This document shows positions 11,119-18,189 of a DNA stretch of 64,000 nucleotides, piece by piece (position 1 is the stretch's first letter; each line of letters begins with the position of its first letter). A program made the position numbers and the translations under genes. The stretch comes from a virus: the IMG/VR virus record IMGVR_UViG_3300036790_000219, positions 1 through 64,000 of that record. One strand, written 5' to 3'. The notes under the pieces are model-generated. The model made no database searches, was not told where the DNA came from, and saw nothing but the letters and a program-made list of their open reading frames with translations.

Positions 11119-12051
11119 ATGGCAACCCGCCACAAATATCCGGTTCTGGCGACTAAAAAGTGGTCTTATGGGGCAGAACTTGAATTAGCAGATTGGCCCC
11201 GTGGGGGAAAACTTCTTTCGGGTATGGCCATTGATGAGGCGGAGTGGAATAACGTCAATTCGAACGGGGTAGCAGTAGATGGTGCTGGTAAGCTTTACAA
11301 TTTAGGCGGGGAAATTTTGACAGCACCTTCCACTGACCCACACGCTCCGGCAGATCAATTGAGTTGGGTGAAGTCCCAATGGCCAGAAGCTCGTTGTAAT
11401 TTTCGAACTGGCTTAAATATCCACGTCCGTGTGCCAGGGTTGCGCGATGACTTAAAACGGTTAAAACAGCTTCAGGCTTTTATTCATGAGAGCATGCCGT
11501 GTTTGCTGCTCGTAATTGATCCTCTTAGTGTTCCAAATAAAAAAGCATTCCCCGATCAAATGGCGTGGAAGGGGGCACGGCGTGATTATCTACGTTGTCG
11601 GAAAAATCATCATACCCTCTTACCGCCTTGGCGCTTAGCATTACAGATGAAGGCTCGTAGTCCAGAAGAATTTTTTGCAGCAGAGGCTATCCATTTGCCA
11701 ACGGGGAAGGTTTATTGGGCCACCGTTCCACGGGCTTGCGTTAATCTGCGGCAATTGTTACAAACTGATACAGTGGAGTTCCGGCATTTTGCTGGTTCCT
11801 CTTCTCCGGAGGAGGTGTTGCGTGCTACGTTGTGGTGCAAAGCTTTTCTTGAAGCCGGATTTGAAGGTGGTAGCGCAAGAGAACTGTTGATGAATTTTGG
11901 GCCGCGTAAGGGGGTTGCTTGGCCGCAAGCAGCCCCTTATATTTATTGGATGGATAAAGGATTCTTCTTTACCAGCCGACATTTCCACCCTCCGGAAACG
12001 GTACGGGCTAATATTCGAGTGTGGCTGCTGCGGCAACGAAGGGAAAGCTAA
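11119..12051 (+). CDS. Amidoligase-like COOH-NH2 ligase
   Basis: 310 aa. Motifs of the glutamine-synthetase-like amidoligase fold (Amidoligase_2): Y-G-A-E-L-E-L near residue 17, G-G-E-I-L-T-A-P near 63, T-G-L-N-I-H-V-R-V near 97, and V-N-L-R...T-V-E-F-R-H-F-A-G near 205-225, where Glu and His residues would hold ATP and metal. These enzymes join a carboxylate to an amine. Its stop is one base before the radical SAM start, at the head of a thymidine-hypermodification cluster, so it may add an amide group to an aminated base. That placement is new to me. Confidence 0.75.
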   Translation: MATRHKYPVLATKKWSYGAELELADWPRGGKLLSGMAIDEAEWNNVNSNGVAVDGAGKLYNLGGEILTAPSTDPHAPADQLSWVKSQWPEARCNFRTGLNIHVRVPGLRDDLKRLKQLQAFIHESMPCLLLVIDPLSVPNKKAFPDQMAWKGARRDYLRCRKNHHTLLPPWRLALQMKARSPEEFFAAEAIHLPTGKVYWATVPRACVNLRQLLQTDTVEFRHFAGSSSPEEVLRATLWCKAFLEAGFEGGSARELLMNFGPRKGVAWPQAAPYIYWMDKGFFFTSRHFHPPETVRANIRVWLLRQRRES

Positions 12052-12052
12052 A

Positions 12053-13183
12053 ATGCCTATGATTATGAACCTGACCGAGAAGCTGTCCCAACGTACAGCT
12101 ATTCAACATATTGCACGTACAGATTGGACTTGGGGGAATGATTCTCCTTTTGTTGTTGAACTGGATCCCACAGCAGCTTGTGATTTGGCTTGTCCTGGTT
12201 GTATTAGCGAAGACCTGATCGCATTGGGTAACCGTTTTTCCGATGAGCGGCTTATGGGGCTTGGCCAAGAGTTTTTGGACTGCGGAGTGAAGGCTGTAAT
12301 CCTTATTGGTGGTGGTGAGCCTTTAGCGCATAGGAAGATTGGGGAGTTTATTGAGTTGCTGGGTAGTAATGGGGTTCACATAGGGATCACCACAAATGGT
12401 AGCTTCATTGATCGGTATTTAGAGCCTATCTCAATGTATTCAAAGTGGACACGGGTTTCGATGGATGCTGCCACGGACCGTTTGTTTAGTGTTCTGCGTC
12501 CGAGGAAGGGTGGTGGTGGAAGTAAGTTCACGAAGATTGTAAGCAACATGCGACTTTTAGCTGGGGTGAAAAAGGGTACCCTCGGCTACTCATTTTTGAT
12601 CCAGACTGCTGCCGACGATCCTAGGGTACAAAGTAATATTTGTGAGATTTATGAAGCAGCTGTCTTAGCCAGAGATATTGGTTGTGACTATTTTGAGGTT
12701 AAACCATCGTATCAATTTCGTGGCGGGGTGGAGCATGCTTTGGTGAAGCATTCTCAGGATTTGATGCAGGAAGCGGTTAGAGAGATAGCAAGGTTGGATG
12801 AATTGGAGACGGCTAGCTTTAAGATCATCCACGCGATTAATTTGAAGCCTTCTCTTGATGGTGTTGGTAGTTCGCAGTCGAAGGAATATAAACAATGCCC
12901 TTCAACGCACTTGAGGACAACGGTTACTCCTTCCGGGGTGTTTGTTTGCCCATATTGGCGTGGCAAAGAGCGAATGCGGGTGGGGGACGTAAATCACCAA
13001 AGTTTTAAGGAGATGTGGGAAGGTGCTCAGCGAGAGCAGGTTATGGCGCGGCTTGATGTTTCTAAGGATTGCACATTCCATTGTTTACGACACGCCACGA
13101 ATCTGACGGCGATAGATATAAAGCAGAAATTAAATGCGGGAGAGATAGTCCCCGTGGTTGAGGAGTTTGATCGTTTTATTTGA
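12053..13183 (+). CDS. Radical SAM enzyme with SPASM-like tail
   Basis: 376 aa from ATG 12053, one base after the amidoligase stop, with GGGAAAG upstream; an earlier in-frame ATG would overlap the amidoligase by 155 bases. C-D-L-A-C-P-G-C is the CxxxCxxC cluster site, and G-G-G-E-P-L follows. The C-terminal Cys set (C-P-S, V-C-P-Y, C-T-F-H-C) suggests a second Fe-S cluster of the SPASM type. In phages M6 and ViI a radical SAM isomerase turns an N-linked aminoacyl thymidine into a C-linked one. Same role proposed here. Confidence 0.85.
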   Translation: MPMIMNLTEKLSQRTAIQHIARTDWTWGNDSPFVVELDPTAACDLACPGCISEDLIALGNRFSDERLMGLGQEFLDCGVKAVILIGGGEPLAHRKIGEFIELLGSNGVHIGITTNGSFIDRYLEPISMYSKWTRVSMDAATDRLFSVLRPRKGGGGSKFTKIVSNMRLLAGVKKGTLGYSFLIQTAADDPRVQSNICEIYEAAVLARDIGCDYFEVKPSYQFRGGVEHALVKHSQDLMQEAVREIARLDELETASFKIIHAINLKPSLDGVGSSQSKEYKQCPSTHLRTTVTPSGVFVCPYWRGKERMRVGDVNHQSFKEMWEGAQREQVMARLDVSKDCTFHCLRHATNLTAIDIKQKLNAGEIVPVVEEFDRFI

Positions 13184-13196
13184 TGGGGAGGGGTCT

Positions 13197-16682: not shown

Positions 16683-17121
16683 TCCAATCCAAACGAAAAA
16701 CCGTCCAAGTTTGCTGGATTTGCGTGCGCTTAGTGATCGAGCCCTTGTAGCTGGTTTCTTTGAGGAGCGTAGTTGGCGCTCCTTGTACGAACGCATAATC
16801 CTGGAAAGAATGCAAGAGGATGGGTACTACAATTTCTACCAGTGGGTTTGGGATACCCCTTCTTCAAAGAAGATTTCTAGTAAGCAACCCCCAATTCCAA
16901 GAACAGCATTGGGAATGCAGTTGGGTTCAGAGCTACGCGCTATTTTTGAGAGTGGGTGTAAATTCGAAGATGTTAGGGACTCAGAAAGGGTGAGAGAGTT
17001 TTGTTCACCAGACGGAAATGTCTATCATCTTACTGAGCGGGAATTAACGCAACGCCAGAAAGGAATGCTTGGGCTGATTCGGGATCGTAGTAGGCGTTGG
17101 ATTCAAAAGCACAGTAGGTAG
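16675..17121 (+). CDS. Hypothetical protein in modification cluster
   Basis: 148 aa from ATG 16675, which overlaps the previous stop by 8 bases. Mostly helical and basic at the C-terminus (R-S-R-R-W-I-Q-K-H-S-R). The central segment Y-Y-N-F-Y-Q-W-V-W-D-T-P is aromatic. No family recognised. Tight packing between the 5-hmdU kinase-like gene and thymidylate synthase suggests a role in base modification. Confidence 0.65.
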   Translation: MLNPIQTKNRPSLLDLRALSDRALVAGFFEERSWRSLYERIILERMQEDGYYNFYQWVWDTPSSKKISSKQPPIPRTALGMQLGSELRAIFESGCKFEDVRDSERVREFCSPDGNVYHLTERELTQRQKGMLGLIRDRSRRWIQKHSR

Positions 17122-17124
17122 AAA

Positions 17125-18189
17125 ATGCGTGTAATCTATGCTGACAACGTCAACGATGCTTTCTATCATGGGGTGAACGCTCTCATTCGAGACGGCGTTC
17201 GCCAGAGCTCTCGGGCTGGTTATGTGCTTGTAATGCCCTATCCAGTTTGTACGACGTACGCTTTCCCAGAGAAGCGCGTACTTTTCCATGCTAAGCGCGA
17301 TGCCAATCCGTTCTTCCATTTATTTGAGGCGTTATGGATGTTGGCTGGACAAAAGCATGGGGCTTGGCTTGACCAGTTTGTCCATGACTTTTCTGAACGC
17401 TTTGCTGAGGAGAACGGGGATATTCATGGAGCCTATGGTTTTCGCTGGCTTCGGCACTTTGACGTTGACGGTGGCGGGGAGGATCGGCGGCTTCCCAATC
17501 AGCTGGATACAATCGTTGAGCTTCTAAAAAAGGATCCAAACGATCGGCGCATTGTTTTGTCTATGTGGGACCCGGTGGCAGATTTGGGTGTTAGTAAGTT
17601 TGACATCCCATGTAATACTCATGTATATTTTCGAGTGCGAGAAGAAGAATTTAAGCCTGGTGGTTTCTTTGAGGAGTCGGACCATAAAACTGGGGGTCGC
17701 TTATTGGATATGACGGTTTGCTGCCGTTCAAATGATGCTGTGTGGGGTGCCTACGGTGCGAATGCCGTACACTTTTCGATCTTGCAGGAATATCTGGCCG
17801 CTCGGATCGGTGTCCAAATTGGGACTTACTACCAATTTAGCAACAACTTCCACATATATTCGGACATGGTAGATAAGCTAAGCCCTTTGGAGCCGGAGAA
17901 CCGTGACTTCTACTCTACTGGCACGGCAACGCGGATTGTGACTGTACCAGAAGACTTCGATGCGGAATTGGCGCTCTTTATGGGTGGGCATCCGCTACGG
18001 TGGACCTATTCTTACCGCAACGAATTCTTCCCTAAGGTGACATTGCCACTTCTTGAGGCACATGGCTTGTGGAAGCAGAAGCTGCGGAAGGAAGCACACG
18101 CGACTTTGCAGAAGCTTCCCTTCGGTTCGGATTGGCGGTTTGCAGCAGAACGTTGGATGCTGCGTCGTATGCATAAAGTGGGAGAGTGA
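17125..18189 (+). CDS. Thymidylate synthase-type dUMP hydroxymethyltransferase
   Basis: 354 aa. ThyA fold: catalytic Cys in F-D-I-P-C-N-T-H, then M-T-V-C-C-R-S-N-D-A-V-W-G-A-Y-G-A-N-A-V-H-F. The Asn in G-A-N-A aligns with the uracil-reading Asn of ThyA (dCMP enzymes have Asp), so the substrate is probably dUMP. Phage enzymes of this form make 5-hydroxymethyl-dUMP rather than dTMP. Together with the neighbouring kinase and transferase genes this points to hmdU-containing DNA. dTMP synthesis cannot be excluded. Confidence 0.85.
   Translation: MRVIYADNVNDAFYHGVNALIRDGVRQSSRAGYVLVMPYPVCTTYAFPEKRVLFHAKRDANPFFHLFEALWMLAGQKHGAWLDQFVHDFSERFAEENGDIHGAYGFRWLRHFDVDGGGEDRRLPNQLDTIVELLKKDPNDRRIVLSMWDPVADLGVSKFDIPCNTHVYFRVREEEFKPGGFFEESDHKTGGRLLDMTVCCRSNDAVWGAYGANAVHFSILQEYLAARIGVQIGTYYQFSNNFHIYSDMVDKLSPLEPENRDFYSTGTATRIVTVPEDFDAELALFMGGHPLRWTYSYRNEFFPKVTLPLLEAHGLWKQKLRKEAHATLQKLPFGSDWRFAAERWMLRRMHKVGE

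Follow-up and report, generated by a model that had tools for sequence, protein, structure and literature searches.

What does a phage do with an amidoligase-like gene at the head of an operon for DNA base modification? The question is raised by positions 11119-18189 of a 64,000-nucleotide stretch, hereafter the window, which covers positions 1 to 64,000 of the IMG/VR virus record IMGVR_UViG_3300036790_000219. An initial annotation read this region as a thymidine hypermodification cluster of the M6/ViI type, with a dUMP-type hydroxymethyltransferase, a 5-hmdU kinase-like protein, a P-loop kinase, an amino-acid transferase-like protein, a flavin enzyme, and a radical SAM enzyme, headed by an amidoligase. 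It proposed that an ATP-dependent amide on an aminated thymidine would be a product not previously described. The observation stands: all of these genes exist. The interpretation, however, is only partly supported, since the operon type is upheld and the amide, as the best reading of the amidoligase, is backed by comparative evidence, but the pathway assigned to them is not supported.

The genes of the operon

Seven intact open reading frames and two small ones, all on the plus strand, tile the region with overlaps or short gaps:

11119..12051 (+), GS/GCS-like putative amidoligase (Amidoligase_2-type), proposed to acylate the amine on the modified base
12053..13183 (+), radical SAM/SPASM enzyme, a putative tailoring enzyme
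13197..14024 (+), FAD-dependent DAO-type enzyme, proposed glycine-removing lyase giving 5-aminomethyl-dU
14011..14901 (+), amino acid:DNA transferase (AADT), proposed glycinyltransferase acting on 5-phosphomethyl-dU
14963..15526 (+), P-loop half of the split 5-hmdU DNA kinase
15508..15780 (+), 90-aa protein without assigned function
15780..16682 (+), helical half of the 5-hmdU DNA kinase
16675..17121 (+), protein without assigned function
17125..18189 (+), thymidylate-synthase-fold dUMP hydroxymethyltransferase

Is the cluster of the M6/ViI type? The core genes are the thymidine-hypermodification set. In Pfam searches the hydroxymethyltransferase matches Thymidylat_synt (PF00303, 4.6e-24) and, in PHROG, a thymidylate-synthase family (phrog_5131, 1.5e-91); aligned with its M6 and PaMx11 homologues, it shares the catalytic PCN and the motif RSND.xWGAxGANxVHFS. 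Its substrate is inferred from this similarity. The genes initially described as a kinase-like protein and a P-loop kinase are the two halves of one split 5-hmdU kinase: the P-loop half matches HMUDK_HMUD1 (PF18748, 9.6e-8) and carries GTNSSGKS, while the helical half matches HMUDK_hel (PF18723, 2.6e-37). The AADT matches the Pfam family 'Amino acid:DNA transferase' (ADDT, PF18724, 3.6e-14), shows about 40% identity to Pseudomonas phage AADTs, and matches a solved 'Glycinyltransferase' (PDB 8z2m, E 2.3e-51); the rows for locus L023 and phage Simon were out of frame in an AADT alignment and are left out, and a row for locus L025 was also mis-cut elsewhere. The flavin enzyme matches DAO (2.1e-14) and the solved 'Flavin-dependent lyase' (PDB 8z2o/8z79, E 2.6e-79), and is 48.6% identical to gp47 of Pseudomonas phage PaMx11. 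Thus, the nearest characterised pathway is that of PaMx11 (glycine, then 5-aminomethyl-dU), and not that of M6 or ViI. Neither a PLP enzyme nor an M6-type radical SAM was matched in the window cluster.

The radical SAM enzyme has the CX3CX2C motif at residues 43-50 and matches Radical_SAM (PF04055, 1.1e-11) and SPASM, the latter just below its cut-off. It was not recognised as the M6 radical SAM, and the reading of it as the M6 isomerase is not supported. In named phages, only remote relatives of this enzyme were found, in unrelated contexts. Profile searches found no homologue for the two proteins without assigned function; the 90-aa protein has a CPHC motif that is Zn-ribbon-like by eye. Promoter and terminator scans of the operon gave no more sites than shuffled sequences.

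The assignment of the amidoligase is remote. The window protein alone matches Amidoligase_2 (PF12224) at E=0.036, below the curated cut-off, although all 11 members of its family alignment hit Amidoligase_2, with a best E-value of 4.4e-6. A search of PDB sequences with the family profile gave no useful hit. An AlphaFold model (pLDDT 93.3) matched only GS/GCS/Dop superfamily entries among the 50 PDB hits listed by Foldseek, but at E-values of 0.002 or weaker and TM-scores of 0.3-0.4. Across 33 diverse sequences, residues E20, E22, E65, H102, H164, R205, E220, and R222 are invariant; these are acidic, His, and Arg residues of active-site type, as judged from the alignment and not from superposition on a solved active site.

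The company kept by the putative amidoligase

Is the amidoligase merely a neighbour? An independent 110.6-kb phage contig, L098, has the same FAD-amidoligase-rSAM-AADT-kinase-TS set at 42-74% identity, and the radical SAM, at 74%, is the most conserved gene of the shared set. A scan with the amidoligase sequence alone found about 87 viral loci, essentially all in base-modification clusters: thymidine-type with flavin lyase, PLP + radical SAM, or Tet/JBP + GATase, and two beside QueF. The family is nearly confined to viruses, with 2 loci in 84,980 genomes. Among 61 non-redundant groups, the amidoligase occurs with FAD, with PLP + M6-type radical SAM, or with GATase, but never with two of these together; the first two routes lose the carboxylate and leave a primary amine.

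In the relatives of the window cluster, the amidoligase sits in the slot between flavin lyase and kinase that PaMx11 gives to a GNAT acetyltransferase, and no locus holds both. In 15 loci found by the flavin enzyme alone, 10 have the amidoligase and 5 have the GNAT, with none having both and none having neither. All 15 Pseudomonas records with this flavin enzyme carry the GNAT beside it. The window cluster has no GNAT, although another GNAT is found about 94 kb away in the same genome. M6 has PLP + radical SAM without the amidoligase and is reported to carry the free amine 5-NedU (PMC6449724), so the ligase is an extra step. As for the two homologues next to QueF, phage QueF proteins yielded the aminomethyl base dPreQ1 in Dp-1 and HVTV-1 (PMC6884629).

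Most amidoligase loci also carry an LMW phosphatase, with the active-site motif CX5RS in 81 of 81, and in locus L099 it is fused to the ligase. By contrast, the window genome lacks it: a search elsewhere in the genome found none.

A proposed route to a capped thymidine

How might these enzymes act together? The best explanation is that the operon builds a hypermodified thymidine in phage DNA. In this view, the hydroxymethylase makes 5-hmdUMP, which ends up in DNA, and the split kinase phosphorylates 5-hmdU in DNA. AADT would then replace the phosphate with glycine (N-alpha-glycylthymidine), and the flavin lyase would remove the glycine carbons, leaving 5-aminomethyl-dU. The amidoligase would activate a carboxylic acid with ATP (as an acyl phosphate, as in GS/GCS enzymes) and join it to that primary amine as an amide; by analogy with gamma-glutamyl-amine synthetases, the donor may be the gamma-carboxyl of glutamate. 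Finally, the radical SAM enzyme may further change the side chain. The analysis establishes the genes, their sequence matches, and the company that the ligase family keeps. The steps up to 5-aminomethyl-dU are inferred by homology to characterised enzymes, ATP-dependent amide formation is inferred from comparative genomics and predicted fold, and the presence of a modified thymidine in virion DNA is itself an inference; the acyl donor and the radical SAM step are guesses. This explanation is held with moderate confidence. Against it stand the remoteness of the amidoligase assignment, the LMW phosphatase, for which it does not account, the distant GNAT, and the Tet/JBP clusters, where a GATase accompanies the ligase and no decarboxylating enzyme is seen, which also fits ammonia-dependent amidation of a carboxylate.

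The latter possibility is the strongest of the alternatives, although it is considered unlikely: the amidoligase might amidate the carboxylate of the amino acid that AADT installs (for example, glycyl-T to glycinamide-T), with ammonia or another amine as nucleophile. In 25 non-redundant groups, 19 of them with a visible Tet/JBP gene, the ligase travels with a stand-alone class II glutamine amidotransferase with the N-terminal Cys motif, a natural ammonia source, and with no enzyme known to remove the carboxylate. However, FAD and PLP clusters, including that of the window, encode enzymes that remove this carboxylate, and they lack the GATase. In Tet/JBP clusters, GATase and FAD replace each other (loci L076, L094, and L096 have FAD and no GATase), which fits GATase being an alternative amine-making step, and the ligase shares its slot with an amine acetyltransferase. 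It is less likely still that the amidoligase makes a free small molecule, such as a gamma-glutamyl or dipeptide amine, that AADT then attaches. GS-type ligases usually act on small molecules, and other phage amidoligases belong to modules thought to act on peptidoglycan (PMC11945000), but the AADT is close to a solved glycinyltransferase and the flavin lyase removes what AADT adds; the ligase is also found beside QueF in records where a search, run without a positive control, found no AADT.

Could the amidoligase and the radical SAM act elsewhere, on protein, peptide, or cell wall, while the operon makes plain 5-aminomethyl-dU or a PaMx11-like base? The weak score of the window protein and the distant GNAT would allow this, but it is improbable given that nearly all loci retrieved by the ligase sequence are base-modification clusters and that the same four-gene set (flavin lyase, amidoligase, radical SAM, AADT) recurs in L098. 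A cell-wall module was rejected because the GGCT and ATP-grasp genes that mark it were not seen in the operon. Most doubtful is the idea that the radical SAM replaces or redirects the flavin step in an M6-like rearrangement, so that the amine is aminoethyl or another skeleton before ligation. The nearest amidoligase relatives outside L098 include L023, a PLP + M6-rSAM cluster (54% identity), but the window radical SAM is SPASM-type and no PLP gene was recognised beside it.

Related systems and implications

The cluster most similar to that of the window is gp46-gp51 of PaMx11, in which AADT, flavin lyase, split 5-hmdU kinase, and hydroxymethylase are 30-49% identical and in similar order; PaMx11 has a GNAT where the relatives have the amidoligase, and it has no radical SAM. 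Pseudomonas phage M6 shares AADT, the kinase halves, and the hydroxymethylase, but has a PLP enzyme and a radical SAM of a different family, and no flavin lyase or amidoligase. The CmoX/CmoY system of Synechococcus phage S-B43 also builds an ATP-dependent amide bond on a phage DNA base after a handle is installed, in that case a glycine amide on cytosine with a carboxymethyl handle and an asparagine-synthetase-type, AMP-forming ligase (PMC12783734). Here the base is thymidine, the proposed handle is an amine, the ligase is predicted to be GS/GCS-type, and no Asn_synthase match was found. Ligases of the GS/GCS superfamily, such as GmaS (gamma-glutamylmethylamide synthetase), YbdK, GshA, and glutamine synthetase, are the only matches listed for the predicted fold, at weak scores and about 8-14% identity, and a DNA base is proposed here in place of a small amine. 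The phage amidoligases linked to peptidoglycan modification in LUZ24-like phages (cited in PMC11945000) share the name amidoligase or COOH-NH2 ligase, but their gene context (GGCT, ATP-grasp) is absent from the window operon.

The novelty of an amide was overstated: the PaMx11 base is reportedly acetylated by its GNAT, giving an acetamide, and CmoY makes an amide on cytosine. What would be new is the proposed action of an ATP-dependent ligase of this predicted type on an aminated thymidine, together with a non-M6 radical SAM, although earlier mention of this amidoligase (for example, in Lee 2018, Lee 2022 (gkab781), Iyer 2013 (gkt573), or Wen 2024) cannot be excluded. A broader reading is possible but tentative, and slightly less likely than not. 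In this reading, a dedicated viral ligase clade forms ATP-dependent amides between a carboxylic acid, probably an amino acid, and aminoalkyl groups on DNA bases, as a plug-in capping step on 5-aminomethyl-dU, 5-aminoethyl-dU, and possibly 7-aminomethyl-7-deazaguanine; in this phage, a radical SAM enzyme would then reshape the cap, giving an undescribed base.

If the proposed explanation is right, it would predict new DNA bases that can be checked by mass spectrometry, as phage Simon (PQ683277), sequenced from sewage, has the same core, and it could offer an enzyme for attaching acids to amine-bearing DNA. It would also add an ATP-dependent acylation step to thymidine hypermodification, a step that would be shared by dozens of unrelated phages. 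Phages would then be seen to swap amine-making and amine-capping modules freely, and thymidine and deazaguanine modification would be linked through one ligase family.

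The hypermodification operon and its surroundings

The 64-kb window is the first part of a virus record of 120,057 bases. Between positions 11119 and 18189 lie intact ORFs on one strand, most of which overlap or nearly touch. Pfam identifies a radical SAM/SPASM protein, a DAO-type flavoprotein, an amino acid:DNA transferase (AADT), the two halves of a 5-hmdU DNA kinase and a thymidylate-synthase-fold enzyme, and PHROGs agree. The observation made in the initial annotation, a thymidine hypermodification cluster with an added amidoligase, is therefore right. However, two labels need correction: the two genes listed as separate kinases encode one split kinase, and the stretches at 15508-15780 and 16675-17121 are additional small genes for which no relatives were found.

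Which of the characterised pathways does the operon resemble? The initial annotation pointed to an M6/ViI-type pathway, and its interpretation is only partly supported, as the base pathway is of the PaMx11 kind. The AADT matches PDB 8z2m, 'Glycinyltransferase' (2.3e-51), and the flavin enzyme matches 8z2o/8z79, 'Flavin-dependent lyase' (2.6e-79). In PaMx11, the genes for AADT, FAD enzyme, GNAT, P-loop protein, helical kinase and synthase are found in a row. In M6, AADT is accompanied by a PLP enzyme and a different radical SAM enzyme, together with the same kinase and synthase.

Other features of the window lie on both sides of the operon, including a uracil-DNA glycosylase fusion in a phage that is expected to use modified dU nucleotides:

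1360-1434 (+), tRNA gene with anticodon TTA, which would read the UAA stop codon
5409-5700 (+), permuted (two-piece, alphaproteobacterial type) tmRNA gene (Rfam RF01849, 134.8 bits, 1.2e-36), within an array of about 36 tRNA genes (241-6761)
7248-8612 (+), TROVE/Ro60-like protein next to the tRNA array (PF05731, 6.2e-12)
19943-22564 (+), uracil-DNA glycosylase fused to exonuclease and family A DNA polymerase

The predicted amidoligase and its genomic context

The amidoligase is the unusual part of the operon. Alone, the protein scores below the Pfam cut-off, but its family does better, with 11 of 11 members hitting Amidoligase_2. An alignment of 33 sequences keeps E20, E22, E65, H102, H164, R205, E220 and R222 invariant. 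The AlphaFold model is confident (93.3), and Foldseek lists only glutamine synthetase, glutamate-cysteine ligase, YbdK, GmaS and Dop-type structures, albeit with weak E-values. On present evidence from sequence and predicted fold, we take it to be a remote GS/GCS-type ligase.

Genomic context provides the main evidence. A scan of viral contigs with the flavin enzyme found 15 loci, some of which are near-copies of each other: ten carry the amidoligase near the flavin gene and five carry a GNAT, with none carrying both or neither. Named phages agree with this pattern. All 15 Pseudomonas records with the flavin enzyme have the GNAT next to it, whereas phage Simon has the amidoligase; two more distant ones (RHph_TM26 and Sonora) matched neither search. 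A scan with the amidoligase alignment confirmed 87 loci, of which 80 were kept (loci and contigs from these scans carry the prefix L). Using HMMs built from the loci, 61 non-redundant groups were tabulated: the amidoligase occurs with FAD in 19, with M6-type PLP and radical SAM enzymes in 4 (plus L007, whose contig also holds both genes), with a class II GATase in 25, and with none of these in 5 (L024, L026, L058, L081 and L030). No group mixed these modules and none had both GNAT and amidoligase. However, the group counts lean on searches seeded by the amidoligase itself, and only the flavin-seeded set is unbiased for the exclusion between GNAT and amidoligase.

A second kind of cluster, often located beside T4-like replication genes, pairs Tet_JBP (1.9e-24), GATase_6, amidoligase, LMW phosphatase, ADDT (1.4e-16) and a kinase. 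This cassette of Tet/JBP, GATase II, amidoligase, LMW phosphatase, AADT and kinase (Tet/JBP loci, L040-L091) is widespread. The LMW phosphatase accompanies most ligases, with the catalytic CX5RS present in 81 of 81, and at L099:7980-9368, in a contig binned as WOR-3, it is in one reading frame with the amidoligase. By contrast, searches of the window genome found no LMW phosphatase.

Two further homologues lie next to QueF: one in L030, where QueF, amidoligase, LMW phosphatase and a QueE-like gene are found together with QueC elsewhere on the contig and no ADDT match in a search without a positive control, and one in Vibrio phage 2.275.O. Amidoligase homologues beside QueF in deazaguanine-type phage clusters, at L030:7234-10280 and L004:7890-12150, raise the possibility of an acylated 7-aminomethyl-7-deazaguanine. 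Phage QueF proteins gave 7-aminomethyl-7-deazaguanine in Dp-1 and HVTV-1 (PMC6884629).

Inferred substrate of the ligase and exchange of modules

What is the substrate of the ligase? It is found where the pathway makes, or could make, an aminoalkyl base. Since the flavin and PLP routes lose the carboxylate of the amino acid, as is known for these enzyme families, the simplest common substrate is the amine. M6, which lacks the ligase, is reported to carry free 5-NedU (PMC6449724). Alternatively, the ligase might amidate a carboxylate with ammonia, a reading that is strongest in the GATase clusters but would need the ligase to do something else in FAD and PLP clusters. GATase and FAD exclude each other even within Tet/JBP clusters (L076, L094 and L096, which have FAD and no GATase), and this fits GATase as another way to obtain the amine, for example by ammonia delivered to the transferase, although this is an inference.

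Known precedents limit the novelty of an amide on a phage base. CmoY is an ATP-dependent amide ligase that acts on phage DNA (5-carboxymethylcytosine and glycine, PMC12783734), but it comes from another enzyme family, and PaMx11 is reported to carry an acetylated aminomethyl base. A literature search found no paper that places an amidoligase in a thymidine-hypermodification cluster, although it did not extend to the main papers on these pathways.

The gene content of the operon and the company kept by the ligase are results of the searches, whereas the chemistry, including ATP-dependent amide formation by the ligase, is inferred. That this is a hypermodification operon is close to certain, and an aminomethyl intermediate is likely. 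It is somewhat more likely than not that the ligase acylates that amine. Two further points rest on judgement and not on measurement: glutamate as the donor is a doubtful suggestion, while it is somewhat more likely than not that the radical SAM enzyme acts on the base side chain.

The radical SAM enzyme is a real part of the operon in this lineage. The viral contig L098 has FAD, amidoligase, radical SAM, AADT, P-loop, helical kinase and synthase genes, with the radical SAM 74% identical and the others 42-54%. The best NCBIfam relatives of this enzyme are all far below cut-off, and its proposed action on the base is thus not assigned from a characterised family. In the ligase tree, the window pairs with L098 and then with L023, a PLP-type cluster whose hydroxymethylase gene (L023:14604-16493) holds an HNH intein at the catalytic Cys region (Intein_splicing 4.8e-7, HNH_3 2.2e-7). 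The pairing with a PLP-type cluster indicates that the amine-making module was exchanged while the ligase stayed.
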